Shown here: positions 3,201 through 54,253 of the stretch, in pieces
Numbering within the stretch: position 1 is the first letter of the stretch
Layout of the letters: each line of letters opens with the position of its first letter
Source: Gluconobacter sphaericus NBRC 12467
GTDB taxonomy: Bacteria > Pseudomonadota > Alphaproteobacteria > Acetobacterales > Acetobacteraceae
DNA length: 64,000 nucleotides
Direction: 5' to 3'
Assembly (NCBI RefSeq): GCF_006539125.1
Contig: NZ_BJMK01000001.1
Span: 310,001-374,000, forward strand
Position numbers and translations under genes: made by a program
Notes under the pieces: model-generated
The model's input: only the letters and a program-made list of their open reading frames with translations
What the model was told of the DNA's origin: nothing
Databases searched by the model: none

Positions 3201-5756
3201 TTGCGCGGGACAGGGGTTATCGGATACCTCCGCAAATGGCGTAACGTGTCAGTCGCCTGCAAAAAATATGTTACAAGGAAAGCCGGTTTGTCAGGATCAC
3301 GGTCAAGAGGTTCCCGGTCTTCGAACAAGCGTCTGGTGCTTTTCGCATCAGCCTGTCTGCTGCCCGTTGTCCTCGGAACGGCTCAGGCGCGTTCCGTTCG
3401 TCATCAGGCCCCGGCATCAGTCCCCGGTGGAAACATCATCCAGGCCATCTCGGTAAAGGGAAACACCCGCATCGAGACGAGTACGGTGCTATCCTATATG
3501 GTCGCCCAGCCTGGTGACACGTTCAATCAGGATGACCTCGACCGCTCGCTGAAGACACTTTATGCCACGGGTCTGTTCAAGGACGTGACGTTGCATCGTG
3601 ACGGCAACACGCTTCTGGTGGACTTGGTCGAGAACCCGATCGTCAACCGTATCGTGTTCGAGGGGAATCACGCGCTGAAGGACGAGGACCTCCGTAAGGA
3701 AATCAGCCTGCGTCCTCGCGCCGTGTTTTCTGCTCAGACGACTGCCGCCGATCGCCAGAAGATACTGAACCAGTATGCCTCCAAGGCCCGCTTCGGTGCG
3801 ACCGTCACGCCGCAGATCGTCAAGCTTTCCCATAACCGTGTCGACGTAATCTTTAACATCAACGAAGCGCAGCAGACGCTCATCAAGAAGATCGTTTTCG
3901 TTGGAAATCATGCCTTCAGCGAAGCACGCCTCGCACAGGTCATCTCGTCCAAGGAGACGATCTGGTACCGCTTTTTCTCGTCTTCGGATGAATACAACCC
4001 CGAGCGCGTGAAGTACGATGCAGAGCTGCTGCGTCGTTTTTACCTGCACAACGGCTTCGTCGATTTCCACATGGTGGATGCCACAGGAGAGCTGGCTCCC
4101 GACCACAAGTCGTTCTACATCACCTTCACCATTCATGAGGGCGACCGCTACCGTCTGGGCAAGATGGATGTGCGTTCCAGCGTGAGACACGTGACGCCCG
4201 AGATGCTGCGCCCGCATATCGAGCTGTTTCCGCATCAGATCTATGACGGCACGGCGATTCAGAATAACACGAAGAATATGCAGGAATGGCTCCAGGCATC
4301 AGGCCATCCCTTTGCGATGGTTCGTTCAGAGATCGCCCGAAATCCGGAAAAGCACATCGTTGACCTGCTGTTCGACGTCACGGAAGGTCCGCATGTCTAT
4401 GTCGAGCGTATCGACATCAACGGTAACACCATCACCCATGATGACGTGATCCGACGGAACCTTCCGATGGCCGAAGGGGACCCGTACACTCCGTTCGACC
4501 GCAAGTATTCCAAGCTTGGTCTCCAGGATCTTGGTTATTTCAGTTCGGTCTCCGTCGATCAAACGCAGGGTTCTGCACCCGACCGTGTGAACGTTTCCGC
4601 AAACGTAGTCGAAAAGCCGACCGGTGAGTTTTCCCTTGGCGGCGGTTACTCGACGGACGTTGGTATTCTTGGTAACGCCTCGATCAAGCAGCACAACCTG
4701 CTCGGAACGGGTGTGGATGCCGGTATTTCGGGGACGGTCGCCTACTATGAAAAGCAGGCTGACATCTCCGTCACCGATCCGTACTTCTTGAACCGTAACC
4801 TTGTGGCCGGTGCGGATTTCTACTTCATCCAGAACAATTACCAGACGTATCAGAGCTATAAGGAATCCCAGTACGGCATGAGCTTGCGTCTGGGGTATGC
4901 CTATAACCGATACCTATCCCAGTCCTGGAACTATACGCTCGTTGACCGTCAGGTCGGCAATTTCTACGACGCCGCTGCCGTTGCTGAAGATCCGAGTCTG
5001 ATCCAGTACGTTCCGTCGATCTACGTTCAGCAGTCGGCCGGCTGGTCGCTTCTCTCGCAGATCAGTACGTCCGTGACGTATGATCGTCGTGATCGCCGCA
5101 TGAAGCCGCATTCGGGGTACATGTTCAAAGTCGGTGGCGATTTCGCAGGTCTGGGCGGTAACTCGAAATATGCTCGTGTGAAGGCGGATGGTGCTTATTA
5201 TCTGCCGCTCGATGACCTGACAGGAAACCATGACTGGACCTTCCAGTTCAAGGGTGGCGTCGGCTACATGGGTGACTGGAGTTCGAGCGGAAACCGCAAC
5301 ATTATCGATAACTTCTATCTTGGTGGTGAAAACCTGCGAGGCTTCCTTCAGGGTGGTGTCGGTCCGCGTTCAGGCCATCTCAAGATCAACGGTGTCTATA
5401 TCCCGGCCCAAGGTCAGGAAGATCTGCTCGGTGGCCGTTTTATGTATACAGCTTCCGCACAGCTCAACTTCCCGCTGCCCATGGGGGACGATCTTGGGGT
5501 TTCGGGCCGTGGATTCATTGACGCAGGCAGCCTTGCGGGCGTGCGCGTTAAGCATCTTTATACGAACCGTACGAATGATGGGGACAACTATACCCCGATC
5601 ACTGGTGACAACCTGATCCCACGTGTCTCTGGTGGTCTCGGTGTGTCCTGGAAGAGCCCGTTCGGCTTGGTTAACATCGATGGTGCCGTGCCGATCCGTA
5701 AGGAACATGGTGACCGTCTCTATCCGCTGCGTTTTGGTTTTGGTCAGCAGTTCTGA
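3201..5756 (+). CDS. bamA: Outer membrane protein assembly factor BamA
   Basis: Central component of the BAM complex that folds beta-barrel proteins into the outer membrane. It has an N-terminal export signal (hydrophobic run near residues 43-60), about five POTRA repeats to about residue 450, then a C-terminal 16-strand barrel ending in Phe, with the conserved Leu-Arg-Gly-Phe motif near residue 712. The listed start is TTG at 3201; an in-frame GTG at 3246 would remove 15 residues and is equally possible. The unusually long basic N-terminus before the signal core supports the later start. It is followed 52 bases later by skp, its usual neighbour. Confidence 0.94.
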   Translation: MRGTGVIGYLRKWRNVSVACKKYVTRKAGLSGSRSRGSRSSNKRLVLFASACLLPVVLGTAQARSVRHQAPASVPGGNIIQAISVKGNTRIETSTVLSYMVAQPGDTFNQDDLDRSLKTLYATGLFKDVTLHRDGNTLLVDLVENPIVNRIVFEGNHALKDEDLRKEISLRPRAVFSAQTTAADRQKILNQYASKARFGATVTPQIVKLSHNRVDVIFNINEAQQTLIKKIVFVGNHAFSEARLAQVISSKETIWYRFFSSSDEYNPERVKYDAELLRRFYLHNGFVDFHMVDATGELAPDHKSFYITFTIHEGDRYRLGKMDVRSSVRHVTPEMLRPHIELFPHQIYDGTAIQNNTKNMQEWLQASGHPFAMVRSEIARNPEKHIVDLLFDVTEGPHVYVERIDINGNTITHDDVIRRNLPMAEGDPYTPFDRKYSKLGLQDLGYFSSVSVDQTQGSAPDRVNVSANVVEKPTGEFSLGGGYSTDVGILGNASIKQHNLLGTGVDAGISGTVAYYEKQADISVTDPYFLNRNLVAGADFYFIQNNYQTYQSYKESQYGMSLRLGYAYNRYLSQSWNYTLVDRQVGNFYDAAAVAEDPSLIQYVPSIYVQQSAGWSLLSQISTSVTYDRRDRRMKPHSGYMFKVGGDFAGLGGNSKYARVKADGAYYLPLDDLTGNHDWTFQFKGGVGYMGDWSSSGNRNIIDNFYLGGENLRGFLQGGVGPRSGHLKINGVYIPAQGQEDLLGGRFMYTASAQLNFPLPMGDDLGVSGRGFIDAGSLAGVRVKHLYTNRTNDGDNYTPITGDNLIPRVSGGLGVSWKSPFGLVNIDGAVPIRKEHGDRLYPLRFGFGQQF

Positions 5757-5808
5757 ACTGTTCGAGGCCTTGTCGTCCTGTTTCTCAACCCCTTGCCGAG
5801 AGGTGGTC

Positions 5809-6723
5809 ATGACCCTCAATTCCCTGATGCGCACGGTTTCGGCCGGCGCGCTTCTGGCAGCGACGATTCTCGTCTCTGCTCCGGTCGCTCAGGCTCAGGC
5901 CGCCGGCGGCAATGGTGGCTGGTTTGTTCCCAAGGCTGCTCATCCTGACGCCCCTCCGCCGCGGCCCATTCAGCGCCGTGTTCCGGAAGCTACGCCAGAT
6001 GAAGAAGAAGACTCTGCACCGGCCGAACAGCAGCAGGCTCCGCCGGTCCTTCCGCTGCCGCCGATCCCGGCTCCTCCGAGCATCGCAAAGGCCTCTCCTC
6101 CGCCGGCTGCCGTCATTGGCGTGATTAATGTCCAGGCCGTTATGCAGATTTCCAGCGCTTGGCAGGAAATTCAGCAGGTTCTGGGTGCCCGCCGTGACCG
6201 TCTCGCGCAGGCCGTTCAGCGTGAGGAGGCTGCCTGGCGTGGCGAGCAGCAGAAGCTTCAGGCCCAAGCTCGCAGTCTGACGTCCGACCAGATCCAGCTG
6301 CGTGAGCGTCACCTGCAGGAACGCCGTGCCAAGGATCAGCACGATTTCGGCAATCAGGCTCGTATCATCCAGGAAGCGGCACAGGTTGCCATGCACCAGA
6401 TCGAGCGTGAGTTGGAAGAGCCAAACGGCATTATCGCCGCTGTCGCTGCTGCCCATAACATGAATCTGATCCTGCATGCGGAGCAGGTTGTGCTTCACGT
6501 TGGCGGTCAGGACATCACCGAGGAAGTCGGCACGCAGCTCAACAAGACGCTGCCACATGTCTTCATTCCCGATGATGGTGTGGACCCCGAGCAGCTCGCC
6601 CGTTCCGGTAAGATGCCCACTACGGCTGACGAACAGCGGCAGGCCCAGGGTCAGCAGCCTCTTGGGCCTCAACAAGCTGCGGCGTCCGCTCCGAGCGAGT
6701 CCGTTCTGCGTCAGCATCACTGA
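5809..6723 (+). CDS. skp: OmpH/Skp family periplasmic chaperone with proline-rich N-terminal linker
   Basis: Periplasmic holdase that keeps unfolded outer membrane proteins soluble on the way to BamA. The ATG at 5809 is chosen because it follows a GAGAGG ribosome site and opens a clean signal peptide (residues 1-30, Ala-rich cleavage region). The frame stays open further upstream, but that stretch overlaps bamA. Residues about 40-100 are rich in Pro, Glu and Ala. The OmpH domain with a long charged coiled coil follows at about 105-250, and the last 50 residues are Gln and Pro rich. At 304 residues it is much longer than E. coli Skp (161). Position between bamA and lpxD supports the assignment. 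Confidence 0.85.
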   Translation: MTLNSLMRTVSAGALLAATILVSAPVAQAQAAGGNGGWFVPKAAHPDAPPPRPIQRRVPEATPDEEEDSAPAEQQQAPPVLPLPPIPAPPSIAKASPPPAAVIGVINVQAVMQISSAWQEIQQVLGARRDRLAQAVQREEAAWRGEQQKLQAQARSLTSDQIQLRERHLQERRAKDQHDFGNQARIIQEAAQVAMHQIERELEEPNGIIAAVAAAHNMNLILHAEQVVLHVGGQDITEEVGTQLNKTLPHVFIPDDGVDPEQLARSGKMPTTADEQRQAQGQQPLGPQQAAASAPSESVLRQHH

Positions 6724-6734
6724 GGCGACGGGCC

Positions 6735-7793
6735 GTGTCTGACATGACAGCAAGTGACAGCCGACCGGGCGACAGCCGTTTCTTTCAGCGTTCCGGACCT
6801 TTCGGTTTGGAACGGCTAGCAGAGGTCTCGGGTAGCGACATCATTCCGGCTTCATCAGGGAAGGGGCAGTCCGAGTTTCGTGGTGTTGCGCCCCTCCATG
6901 TTGCAGGGCCGGATGAAATCAGCTTCCTCGACAATCGCCGCTACCTGCCACTTCTGGCGGAAACGAAGGCCGGAGCGGTTATTCTCTCCCCGGCCTTCAC
7001 CGACAAGCTGCCGCCTGATACGGCGGGGTTGGCCTGCAAGGTGCCTTATCTGGCTTGGGCACGTGTTGCCACGCTGTTCCACCCGGCCTCCGCGTCCACG
7101 GGTGTCCGCCATCCGAGTGCCTGGATCGCGGAAGATGCCGAAATTGGCGAAAACGTTGAGATCGGTCCTTTTGCCGTGATTGGTAGTGGTGTCCGTATTG
7201 GTCGTGACAGCATTGTCGCAAGCCATGCCAGTATAGGCCAGAGTGTTGAGATCGGGGCGCGTTGCCGGATCGGCGCTCATGTCGCCATCTCTCATGCCCG
7301 GATCGGTGATCGCGTCACGCTCTATCCTGGTGTGCGTATCGGGCAGGATGGTTTCGGGTTCGCCGTCGGCCCCGAAGGTTTCGAAACGGTCCCGCAACTT
7401 GGGCTTGTTGTGTTGGAAGACGGCGTAGAAGTGGGGGCGAACTCCACCATCGATCGTGGTTCCATGCGTGACACCCTGATCGGAGCCGGAACCCGGATCG
7501 ATAATCTCGTGCAGATCGGCCATAATGCCCGTCTGGGACGCTGTTGCATCATCGTCTCGCAGGCCGGAATTTCCGGCTCTACGGAATTGGGTGATTTTGT
7601 CACCATTGCTGCACAGGCTGGCCTGATCGGACATATTAAGATCGGCGCGAAGGCCCGGATCGGCGCTCAGTGTGGCGTTATGTCGGATGTAGAGGCTGGC
7701 GCCGATGTCATCGGCAGCCCCGCGATGCCGTTCCGTGAATTTTTTCGTAATGTTGCGACCTTGCGAAAACTTTCTCGTAAAAGCGGGGACTAG
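6735..7793 (+). CDS. lpxD: UDP-3-O-acylglucosamine N-acyltransferase
   Basis: Third step of lipid A synthesis: N-acylation of UDP-3-O-acyl-glucosamine using acyl-ACP. The 352 residues show an N-terminal uridine-binding domain and a left-handed parallel beta helix of hexapeptide repeats from about residue 130 to 300. The catalytic histidine is most likely His263 in the Gln-Ile-Gly-His-Asn motif. A GTG start at 6735 sits 9 bases after a GAGG ribosome site. An in-frame ATG at 6744 is the alternative but is less well spaced. It lies 11 bases after skp in the same operon. Confidence 0.95.
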   Translation: MSDMTASDSRPGDSRFFQRSGPFGLERLAEVSGSDIIPASSGKGQSEFRGVAPLHVAGPDEISFLDNRRYLPLLAETKAGAVILSPAFTDKLPPDTAGLACKVPYLAWARVATLFHPASASTGVRHPSAWIAEDAEIGENVEIGPFAVIGSGVRIGRDSIVASHASIGQSVEIGARCRIGAHVAISHARIGDRVTLYPGVRIGQDGFGFAVGPEGFETVPQLGLVVLEDGVEVGANSTIDRGSMRDTLIGAGTRIDNLVQIGHNARLGRCCIIVSQAGISGSTELGDFVTIAAQAGLIGHIKIGAKARIGAQCGVMSDVEAGADVIGSPAMPFREFFRNVATLRKLSRKSGD

Positions 7794-51190: not shown

Positions 51191-51871
51191 ATGTCCTCAA
51201 CCCTTTCCCCGCGTTCGGCACTGGACGCGGAAGCCGTCAAGACGGCTTATCGTCGATGGGCCCGCGTTTATGATACTGTTTTTGGCGGTATTTCGGGGTA
51301 CGGACGTAAGAGAGCAGTGGCTGCGGTCAATGCCCTGCCAGGCGAGAGGGTTCTGGAAGTCGGCGTTGGAACGGGGCTGGCCCTGCCGTCCTATTCCCGC
51401 GACAAGCGGATCACGGGAATCGATCTTTCCGAAGACATGCTGGAGCGTGCACGCATCCGCGTTCTGCAGGACCATCTGACGAATGTGGATGACCTGCTGG
51501 AAATGGATGCAGAAGCCACGACGTTCGAGGACGACAGCTTCGATATTGCCGTTGCAATGTTCGTCGCCTCTGTCGTGCCGCATCCGGACCGGTTGCTGGC
51601 CGAGCTCAAGCGTGTCGTGAAGCCGGGTGGGCATATCCTGTTCGTCAACCACTTCCTGGCGACGGGCGGTCTGCGTCTTTCGGTCGAGCGGGGTATGGCC
51701 CGCGCGTCGCGTTCGCTGGGCTGGCATCCGGATTTTGCCATTGAATCGCTGCTGCCGCCGGAAGATCTGCGCCGCGCCACGCTGATGCCGGTTCCGCCGG
51801 CGGGGTTGTTTACACTCGTGACATTGCCGCAATGCGAGAGTAAAAGCGACGCAGCAGCCCTGGTCGCCTGA
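51191..51871 (+). CDS. pmtA: Phosphatidylethanolamine N-methyltransferase (PmtA type)
   Basis: Class I SAM methyltransferase expected to make phosphatidylcholine by three methylations of PE at the inner membrane. 226 residues. An N-terminal Tyr-Arg-Arg-Trp-Ala-Arg-Val-Tyr-Asp membrane-contact helix precedes SAM motif I Val-Leu-Glu-Val-Gly-Val-Gly-Thr-Gly near residue 55 and Leu-Lys-Pro-Gly-Gly-like motif III near 140. The Rhodobacter-type Pmt family fits best, but UbiE-like quinone methyltransferases are close relatives. Confidence 0.8.
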   Translation: MSSTLSPRSALDAEAVKTAYRRWARVYDTVFGGISGYGRKRAVAAVNALPGERVLEVGVGTGLALPSYSRDKRITGIDLSEDMLERARIRVLQDHLTNVDDLLEMDAEATTFEDDSFDIAVAMFVASVVPHPDRLLAELKRVVKPGGHILFVNHFLATGGLRLSVERGMARASRSLGWHPDFAIESLLPPEDLRRATLMPVPPAGLFTLVTLPQCESKSDAAALVA

Positions 51872-51957: not shown

Positions 51958-53124
51958 ATGACTTATCAGGCCGTCGATACTGCCCCAGCCCGTTCTAGCC
52001 GCCGAGTCGGAACGTCTTTCATTCTGCTGGCACTTTTTGCCGGTTTGCTGGGCGGGTCGTTGGCTCTGCCAATGCTTCAGACACATCCCACGAGTGGTCA
52101 GGCGTTTTGCCACGGTATTCTCATGACGTTCTTCGTCATGTGCCCTGCCGCGCTGGGTGGTTTTGGCCAGTGGCTTCTACCGTCTGCGCTGGGGATTAAC
52201 CGGACGGTGCTTCGGGGCCTGACGATGGCCGGGTTCGGGTTTCTGTCTTCCGGGGTCGTGCTGCTTCCGGTTCTGCCGTTCGTAGCTCTGCTGTTGTGGT
52301 CGGTCGGGATCCTGGCTGTAGCGATTGATGTGATCACTACCTGTGTTGAGGGACGGACCTGCCGTTTCCGCGACATGTCGCCGCTGGCCTGGTCGCTGTT
52401 GGCGACCGCTTGCAGCGTTGTTCTCGTGGCGCCGGTTCTGGCAGCGGTTGTGACGCGCGGCATGATGGACGGGATTACAACCACGGCCCTGATCGAGACG
52501 CTGCATCTTCCGGAAACTGCTCTGATGCTGACGCCGGCTCTGGGGCTGGTGGCGTCAGCGCTGCTGTCGCGTTCGTCCGATGGGGGCGCTTCCTGGGTAG
52601 TGGCGCCTTATGTTTTTGGCATCATGGGTATTGGTGGTCCGCTGCTGTGGATGGACGGGCTTTATGGCTCGCTTCCCGCTGGCGTGACGGCCAGCCTTGT
52701 TGTTGTGACGCAGATCGTGCCGTCGATGGTACTGATTTGTGCGCTGTGCCGGGATGTGTGGCAGCAGAAGCGGGATCTGGATGGTGCCGCACTCTGGGCG
52801 ATTGGCAGCATTCTGCTTTTCACGGCGGGATGGCTGTCTGACTGGCTGCCGGGACATTCGGGCGATCATACGGCTGTGGCGTTCGGTGGTATCATGGCGC
52901 TTTGCGGCGGCTTCTATGCTTGGGTTGAGATGCTTCTGCCCCGTCGGATCCCCGTGATGATGAGCCGGCTGCACGCCGGGCTGATGTTGGTCGGGGCGTT
53001 CTGTTCGATCGTGCCGGGCGTTATGATCTATGGTGAGGTTCTTATGGGGATCAGTCTTCTGGCCTTTGGGCTGGTCGGGCTGTTCCTGCTGAGGGAGACC
53101 GGGCGTGCCCGGGTCTCGGCATGA
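51958..53124 (+). CDS. COX1-like membrane protein lacking the CuB/high-spin haem site
   Basis: 388 residues, about 12 membrane helices, aligned by eye to aa3/bo3 oxidase subunit I (usually over 500 residues). Conserved: His52 in His-Gly-Ile-Leu-Met with a Gly-Gly-Phe-Gly-X-Trp follow-up (low-spin haem ligand), and His304, second His of the HFH motif, before Gly-Gly-Phe-Tyr-X-Trp. Lost: HPEVY is Leu184-Pro-Glu-Thr-Ala188; the CuB His-His pair after a conserved Trp is Asp233-Gly234; the high-spin haem His is Gly302. Oxygen reduction is therefore not expected; it may be a cytochrome b-like or assembly-related protein. ATGA overlap with ctaB. Confidence 0.8.
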   Translation: MTYQAVDTAPARSSRRVGTSFILLALFAGLLGGSLALPMLQTHPTSGQAFCHGILMTFFVMCPAALGGFGQWLLPSALGINRTVLRGLTMAGFGFLSSGVVLLPVLPFVALLLWSVGILAVAIDVITTCVEGRTCRFRDMSPLAWSLLATACSVVLVAPVLAAVVTRGMMDGITTTALIETLHLPETALMLTPALGLVASALLSRSSDGGASWVVAPYVFGIMGIGGPLLWMDGLYGSLPAGVTASLVVVTQIVPSMVLICALCRDVWQQKRDLDGAALWAIGSILLFTAGWLSDWLPGHSGDHTAVAFGGIMALCGGFYAWVEMLLPRRIPVMMSRLHAGLMLVGAFCSIVPGVMIYGEVLMGISLLAFGLVGLFLLRETGRARVSA

Positions 53125-54071
53125 GCGATATGGCGACACCTTTGGCCCCTTCGGGGGTTTTTTCCGTTCCGGGCAAGGATGGTGATCCGTCCCTGCGTGA
53201 ATGGTTGGCGCTTCTCAAGCCGCGCGTGATTTCACTGGTGGTGTTTACGGGCGCTGCGGGCATGGCTGTGGCGCCGCGCTGGCCGTCCATTCCCATCGGA
53301 CTGATTACTATTCTGTGCATCTGCATCGGGGCAGGCGCCGCGGGTGCGATCAACATGTGGTATGATCGCGACATTGACGCGATTATGAAACGGACGGTCG
53401 TGCGGCCCATTCCCGACGGGCGGATGCCGGAGCAGGCTGCGCTGGTTTATGGCGTTGTGCTGTCGGCTCTGTCCGTGGTTGTGCTGTGGCTGGCGACGAA
53501 TGCACTGGCGGCCGGCATCCTCGCATTCTCGATTTTCTTTTACAGCGTCATCTACACGATGTGGCTCAAGCGGAGCACGCCGCAGAACATTGTGATTGGT
53601 GGGGCTGCGGGTGCGTTCCCGCCGATGATCGGCTGGGCGGCGACCATGAATTCCATGGCTGTGCTGCCGGTGGCGATGTTTGCGATCGTCTTTCTGTGGA
53701 CCCCGCCGCATTTCTGGTCGCTGTCACTTTATGCGTGCAAGGATTACGGCAAGGCGGGCATTCCGATGCTGCCGGTCGTGAAGGGTGCGCGTCATACGCG
53801 GTGGCAGATCCTGATATACACGTTCATTCTTACGGCCGTCTCACTGGTGCCGAGTTTCGTGCATGAGGTTGGGCTGACCTATACGGTTGTGACCAGTCTG
53901 CTGGATTTGGGATTTATTCTGTGTGCGTTCCGGGTCCTGATGGATCAGCAGGATGCGGAAGGGGTGAGCCTTACGGCAGACAAGCCGGCGCGTTTCGCGT
54001 TTCGGTATTCGCTGGCCTATCTTTTCCTGCTGTTCTGTGGGCTACTGGTTGACCGGGTTCTGATCGGATGA
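53121..54071 (+). CDS. ctaB: Protoheme IX farnesyltransferase (heme O synthase)
   Basis: Adds a farnesyl chain to haem B to give haem O, needed by bo3-type quinol oxidases. 316 residues, about nine helices. The first Asp-rich motif is Asn-Met-Trp-Tyr-Asp-Arg-Asp-Ile-Asp near residue 74 with Met-Lys-Arg-Thr after it; the loop Trp-Thr-Pro-Pro-His-Phe-Trp is near 193. It overlaps the COX1-like gene and the next small gene by four bases each, forming a compact three-gene unit. Confidence 0.96.
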   Translation: MSDMATPLAPSGVFSVPGKDGDPSLREWLALLKPRVISLVVFTGAAGMAVAPRWPSIPIGLITILCICIGAGAAGAINMWYDRDIDAIMKRTVVRPIPDGRMPEQAALVYGVVLSALSVVVLWLATNALAAGILAFSIFFYSVIYTMWLKRSTPQNIVIGGAAGAFPPMIGWAATMNSMAVLPVAMFAIVFLWTPPHFWSLSLYACKDYGKAGIPMLPVVKGARHTRWQILIYTFILTAVSLVPSFVHEVGLTYTVVTSLLDLGFILCAFRVLMDQQDAEGVSLTADKPARFAFRYSLAYLFLLFCGLLVDRVLIG

Positions 54072-54190
54072 GCATGACCACTGATATTGATCTTGCCCGC
54101 AAGCGGCGTCTGAGCAGGATTACGGGGATTGTTGGCGGTGTGGTACTACTGGCTGTCATCTTTTACGTGATTACGCTGACGCGGCTGTAA
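54068..54190 (+). CDS. CoxF-like small membrane protein (cytochrome oxidase locus)
   Basis: 40 residues: a short basic N-terminus (Ala-Arg-Lys-Arg-Arg-Leu) and one membrane helix ending Phe-Tyr-Val-Ile-Thr-Leu-Thr-Arg-Leu. Small proteins of this shape sit between ctaB and ctaG in many alphaproteobacterial cytochrome c oxidase operons. The ATG overlaps the ctaB stop. Here ctaG and ctaE do not follow; a terminator comes next. Too short for most gene callers. Confidence 0.75.
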   Translation: MSMTTDIDLARKRRLSRITGIVGGVVLLAVIFYVITLTRL

Positions 54191-54224
54191 TAGCCGGGAT
54201 TTTGCTGCTTATTCAGGCAATAAA

Positions 54225-54253
54225 AAAGGCCCGGGGATTTCCCGGGCCTTTTT
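54225..54253. terminator. Terminator after the COX1-like/ctaB unit
   Basis: 11-base perfect stem AAAGGCCCGGG (54225-54235) with CCCGGGCCTTT (54241-54251), 5-base loop, flanked by A run and T run. It serves both the ctaB unit and the convergent Tim44-like gene. Confidence 0.93.

Follow-up and report, generated by a model that had tools for sequence, protein, structure and literature searches.

The gene directly upstream of ctaB in Gluconobacter sphaericus NBRC 12467 encodes a degenerate cytochrome c oxidase subunit I (COX1) in which the oxygen-reducing centre has lost its ligands and both histidines of the low-spin haem are kept, and the same histidine pair is kept in every readable homologue that we aligned from the acetic acid bacteria. 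The gene lies in a window of 64,000 nucleotides, by which we mean the whole stretch of DNA that was analysed. Our preferred reading, to which we give an even chance, is that the former subunit I has become a one-haem membrane protein that would work with CtaB in the haem O branch or in the assembly of bo3. The features of the locus are as follows.

51191 to 51871, + strand: pmtA-like phospholipid N-methyltransferase, named by resemblance (NF045882, 155.7 bits, below the cut-off of 390)
51958 to 53124, + strand: degenerate COX1 (CtaD-like), 388 aa with 12 predicted helices, from homology, alignment and model
52111 to 52113, + strand: codon of His52, aligned with the helix II low-spin haem ligand and within model helix 46–78
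52867 to 52869, + strand: codon of His304, aligned with the helix X low-spin haem ligand and just N-terminal of model helix 305–326
53121 to 54071, + strand: ctaB, haem O synthase, 316 aa (TIGR01473, 316.1 bits against a cut-off of 210.3), with a 4-nt overlap with the preceding frame
54068 to 54190, + strand: frame of 40 codons that contains a single hydrophobic stretch and shares 4 nt with ctaB
54223 to 54253, + strand: strong intrinsic-terminator-like hairpin (14-pair stem and T-run), a consensus match only

The original prediction had recognized the COX1 homology by eye and had described a frame that is intact for 388 codons and overlaps ctaB. Both statements held, as the frame is uninterrupted over its 388 codons and shares 4 nt with the start of ctaB at 53121, and the protein gave a significant match to the COX1 profile PF00115 (52.5 bits against a cut-off of 34.8). 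No extra domain besides COX1 was found in the frame by the Pfam search. The score against TIGR02891, the NCBIfam equivalog for cytochrome c oxidase subunit I, was 40.2 bits and thus below its cut-off of 670.75. In a search of the PDB, the top solved chain was 3om3_A (E 7.2e-11); two stretches aligned with Rhodobacter sphaeroides subunit I, in which His52 pairs with the HGILM histidine and His304 with the latter of the two histidines in HFH. An AlphaFold2 model of the window protein (mean pLDDT 80.8, pTM 0.85) contained 12 helices, with His52 in helix II and His304 where helix X begins, and its best matches were COX1 chains (Foldseek E 2.1e-12; against 7vuw_N, Z 38.0 over 373 aligned residues at 2.8 Å). 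The input consisted of the window protein and 29 relatives, with 28 intact COX1 among the 30 rows, so that the fold leans to COX1; read in this light, the model supports a predicted 12-helix COX1 fold.

To verify the residues at the ligand positions we used a 110-row alignment that included 19 intact Acetobacteraceae COX1; the counts given below come from a larger alignment with 61 intact COX1 (64 reference rows minus L176, L178 and L261). The columns were named after the general COX1 motifs for ligands and the K channel. His52 and His304 fall in the two low-spin haem histidine columns, Leu184, Asp233 and Gly234 occupy the three CuB histidine columns, Ala188 stands at the cross-linked tyrosine and Gly302 at the high-spin haem histidine. 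All of these assignments had been made in the original prediction and were reproduced here, and its remark that the K-channel lysine is not evident agrees with Leu259 in that column. Because the CuB and high-spin ligands are lost, oxygen reduction by this protein appears very unlikely. The predicted haem pocket is also remodelled, since a loop with paired arginines is missing in 105 of the 106 homologues and no more than 14 of them retain the arginine of MRxEL; the paired arginines presumably have a role with the haem propionates.

Short COX1-like frames turned up in many genomes when the window protein was searched against 397 genomes of the family and a profile of 37 rows against 395 genomes of the order, and Komagataeibacter xylinus (L206) is a named carrier among the matches listed. 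A subset of the carriers found was aligned, giving 106 homologues with the window copy included, from 20 genus labels plus Komagataeibacter xylinus; a split frame (L064) and frames shorter than 300 aa were left out. The family is highly diverged, with a median pairwise identity of 27% and a minimum of 14% among 89 homologues (window protein excluded). Against this divergence, the His52 column carries histidine in 106/106 homologues and the His304 column in 105/105 readable ones, the remaining sequence stopping at a contig end. The copy of genome G056, which was found only at its locus, keeps both histidines by eye and in the alignment. The columns of the active centre behave differently: histidine occurs in 0/106, 40/106 and 10/106 homologues in the three CuB columns, never with the CuB ligands together, and in 2/106 (L022 and L185) in the high-spin column, while the tyrosine and the K-channel lysine are each found in 0/106. 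When the four CuB and high-spin histidines were tallied for each member, none was present in 55 members, one in 50 and two in one.

The same contrast was seen in the history of each column. By parsimony on the tree of the 106 homologues, only four of 370 columns showed no change, namely H52, W145, W231 and H304, whereas the median was 24 changes per column and the lost-ligand columns had 17–33. These four were also the sole invariant columns among 37 diverse members, and they are what is fully kept of 166 columns that are invariant in the 61 intact COX1. Two of the four are the low-spin histidines, which exceeds chance expectation (hypergeometric 0.0004), and the Trp231 column corresponds to the tryptophan preceding the CuB histidine pair of COX1. 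This strict keeping of the axial pair amid wholesale change would be best explained by haem binding. Elsewhere in the protein, Trp114 (codon at 52297–52299) is tryptophan in 100 of the 106 degenerate copies, and the column is alanine in 59 of the 61 intact COX1; judged from the alignment, it is a residue apparently gained by the new family.

Purifying selection was evident from substitution rates. Among 28 hand-chosen pairs, the 25 with dS of 0.1–1.5 had a median dN/dS of 0.108 (range 0.058–0.311), and ctaB gave a lower value than the degenerate COX1 in 26 of the 28. Together with the invariant histidine pair, these values mean that the gene is constrained, faster-evolving than ctaB and frozen at the haem ligands. 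The claims that the gene has not simply decayed, and that one haem site was lost under selection on the other, were thereby strongly supported across the clade, by dN/dS, by the invariant pair and by the four of 166 columns kept. A functionless ctaD remnant, decaying and kept through an operon shared with ctaB, would agree with the loss of the active-centre ligands, with the fast evolution and with the loss of the gene from one genome (G001, see below), and the need for translation into ctaB could hold its frame open. That constraint alone, however, would not protect H52, W145, W231 and H304, and a dN/dS of about 0.11, an axial pair invariant over 106 members and a single split frame in 91 loci (L064), whose N-terminal piece still has the first histidine, speak against such a remnant, which we regard as highly improbable and which we rejected as the main reading. 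The split copy (genome G327, 4564–5879) consists of a 118-aa N-terminal frame with the first low-spin histidine and a remainder in another frame, and its assembly has a listed completeness of 85%, which makes a sequencing error possible.

All 106 homologues formed one clade (support 1.0) on a long stem that adjoins an odd COX1 (L176), and long-branch attraction is possible behind this grouping. Parallel losses within the family are also possible, because in the pmtA tree G086 (L100), a genome with intact COX, falls among the carriers (support 0.857). A 520-aa, near full-length COX1 (L094; genome G071, 5453–7015, − strand) has the same ligand losses and keeps both low-spin histidines, and from its sequence it looks like a transitional form. 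When 86 genomes of the class were searched (G000, G040 and 84 from other families), the full 404-position profile was covered only in G000 and G040; the remaining matches stopped near profile position 360–370, as intact COX1 does, or were partial, and the shortest complete-looking frame was 477 aa (G523).

The order pmtA, degenerate COX1, ctaB on the same strand was found in 91/91 degenerate loci (L004–L094), and a small frame followed ctaB in 90 of them (none in L064), its likeness being judged by eye. Small frames also follow ctaB in intact cox loci, where ctaB lies next to COX1 and is followed by a small frame in 18 of 19 loci. In these 19 loci pmtA lies about 1 kb upstream of COX1 in 10 and 4 kb upstream in one, with none nearby in 8, and the gap between pmtA and COX1 in such loci contains a coxB-like frame, recognized by eye. 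Since the neighbours pmtA and ctaB are shared and a coxB-like frame fills the gap in the intact loci, the degenerate COX1 occupies the old cox slot, from which coxB is gone. The 40-codon frame at 54068–54190 had no Pfam or NCBIfam match and is possibly an overlooked partner of CtaB. Terminator-like sites such as the hairpin behind it numbered 11 in the region, where 5.0 were expected.

The tight linkage to ctaB is also what would be expected of a haem-free structural partner that stabilizes CtaB, as proposed in PMC10715153, in which the histidines would serve packing or the contact with CtaB. Packing alone, however, is not expected to pick out the axial pair, and just two histidines and two tryptophans survive of the 166 COX1-invariant columns, the histidines being exactly that pair; we consider this explanation unlikely. 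A haem or redox sensor tuning CtaB activity could likewise account for the overlap of the frames and for the one haem site that is kept, yet the frame holds no further domain that we could find and nothing else indicates signalling, so that a sensor seems to us decidedly improbable.

We then considered the other oxidase genes of the window's genome. One further COX1-family gene is present, CyoB, which lies about 57 kb from the degenerate COX1. The original prediction noted that subunits II and III are absent from the window; in the whole-assembly search, the sole COX2 match and the sole COX3 match adjoin CyoB (C1:418.8–421.9 kb), so that the search gave no separate subunit II or III of a cytochrome c oxidase. 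Cytochrome c1 is present, and neither a cytochrome c oxidase nor a haem A synthase was found in this genome.

Co-occurrence was analysed in a non-random panel of 49 hand-chosen genomes, comprising all genomes without a match in the profile search together with representatives; haem A synthase was searched in 44 of the 49 and cytochrome c1 in 42. The panel was split into 35 carriers, 7 non-carriers that the pmtA tree puts within the acetic acid bacteria, and 7 genomes set aside (G031, G076, G002, G077, G053, G038 and G196), whose best COX1 matches were intact or of other types. Lineages were taken from the pmtA tree, with modest support of 0.70–0.85 at the nearest nodes, and "CyoB-type" denotes a gene that was classed from its PF00115 score and the length of its frame instead of with a profile specific for CyoB. 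In all 35 carriers CtaB scored over the cut-off, and a CyoB-type COX1 match reached at least 461 bits. Six non-carriers in four lineages (G066; G070; G210 and G449; G029 and G116) had neither CtaB over the cut-off nor a CyoB-type match, and no COX1-family match at E <= 0.001, hence no heme-copper oxidase, was found in G210, G449 and G070. The seventh non-carrier, G001, has ctaB and two CyoB-type genes and no degenerate COX1, with pmtA followed directly by ctaB (L174); its position among the carriers in the pmtA tree has a support of 0.874 on one side and of at most 0.614 above. This locus is a natural deletion of the degenerate COX1 and a potential test case. Among the genomes set aside, G053 and G196 have both ctaB and CyoB-type genes; G053, the only one of the seven placed in the tree, has no copy between pmtA and ctaB and groups with an intact-COX genome.

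Within the chosen panel, the degenerate COX1 therefore tracks the haem O/bo3 pair with one exception (G001). Linkage can account for its co-loss with CtaB, whereas that with CyoB is not simple linkage, because CyoB lies at a distance in the window's genome. The protein is not required everywhere, since G001 lacks it and yet retains ctaB and CyoB. Cytochrome c1 was found in 30/35 carriers and 5/7 non-carriers, and haem A synthase in 22/35 carriers and 0/7 non-carriers, so that the degenerate COX1 does not track bc1 and, within the carriers, does not track haem A synthase either. A role as an outlet of bc1 was not supported, as the distribution does not follow cytochrome c1, and neither was a role in haem A, the synthase being missing in 13/35 carriers.

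These distributions bear on an independent electron-transfer cytochrome, which had been among the roles suggested originally and which could be quinol-linked or an outlet of bc1. A bis-His low-spin haem is indeed an electron-transfer cofactor of working oxidases, and the window's genome combines cytochrome c1 with the lack of any cytochrome c oxidase that we could find. Nevertheless, five of the 35 carriers are without cytochrome c1, five of the seven non-carriers have it, and no separate subunit II was found in the window's genome; we judge such a cytochrome to be rather unlikely. Of the suggested roles, the one with haem O and CtaB fits best, on the grounds of operon position and because the gene occurs together with CtaB and CyoB-type oxidase genes; electron transfer via bc1 is not favoured.

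In the reading that we prefer, a cytochrome c oxidase subunit I would have become a one-haem membrane protein by keeping the 12-helix fold and losing the oxygen-reducing site, with a single low-spin bis-histidine haem held between helices II and X. This haem would be haem B or haem O; haem A is not expected in the window's organism, in whose genome no haem A synthase was found. Oxygen respiration is an unlikely role for a protein that has no dinuclear centre, in a genome where no separate subunit II was found and with haem A synthase missing from 13 of the 35 carriers. The arrangement of the genes, their overlapping frames and the joint loss with CtaB and the remote CyoB speak instead for haem O handling for bo3. 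The degenerate COX1 and CtaB, perhaps with the 40-aa single-helix protein, may thus act in the haem O branch, where haem would be accepted, held or positioned for the assembly of the unlinked bo3 quinol oxidase. A more specific form, a dedicated haem O carrier that passes haem from CtaB through the low-spin site of the degenerate COX1 to apo-CyoB, is possible and distinctly more doubtful. What counts against an assembly role is that the bo3 oxidase of E. coli is known with no specific assembly protein other than haem O synthase (PMC9145763).

One of the two haem sites of the heme-copper oxidases survives alone here through a whole clade. The routes by which haem reaches oxidase subunit I are not settled, and a natural, conserved low-spin-only COX1 accompanied by CtaB would offer a simplified system. 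If the haem O carrier reading is correct, the acetic acid bacteria would have produced a lineage of heme-copper proteins in which the oxygen site was erased and the other haem was conserved as a working part.

Compared with COX1 (CtaD) of the family A heme-copper oxidases, the degenerate protein shares the slot beside ctaB, the predicted 12-helix fold, both low-spin histidines, the tryptophan before the CuB histidine pair and the Trp145 column. It differs in that the CuB ligands never occur together, the cross-linked tyrosine (present in 0/106), the K-channel lysine (present in 0/106) and nearly always the high-spin histidine (present in 2/106) are lost, loops are missing, and the window's genome yielded no separate subunit II or III. 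With haem A synthase (CtaA) it would have in common that both are membrane proteins of the haem O/A branch, and CtaA can form a complex with CtaB (PMC9145763); in contrast, CtaA belongs to a separate family (PF02628) and is absent from 13/35 carrier genomes.

The degenerate gene itself is already known in print. Matsutani et al. 2014 reportedly regarded the ctaD of A. pasteurianus as non-functional through mutations. That work is the source of a description in PMC10715153, in which a COX1-like gene beside ctaB in Acetobacter is called "deranged" and "lacking all" metal-cofactor ligands, and in A. pasteurianus SKU1108 ctaD (APT_01775) adjoins ctaB (APT_01774) according to PMC5158111. By this description and by its position beside ctaB, the "deranged" protein belongs to the same gene family as ours, and the window's genome fits the setting, with a COX1-like gene beside ctaB and no cytochrome c oxidase found. 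We met no mention of the kept low-spin pair in the literature searched, which is no proof of its absence. The two accounts differ in that the "deranged" protein is printed as being without any ligand; for the sequences examined here, that wording does not fit, as both low-spin ligands are present in every readable member.
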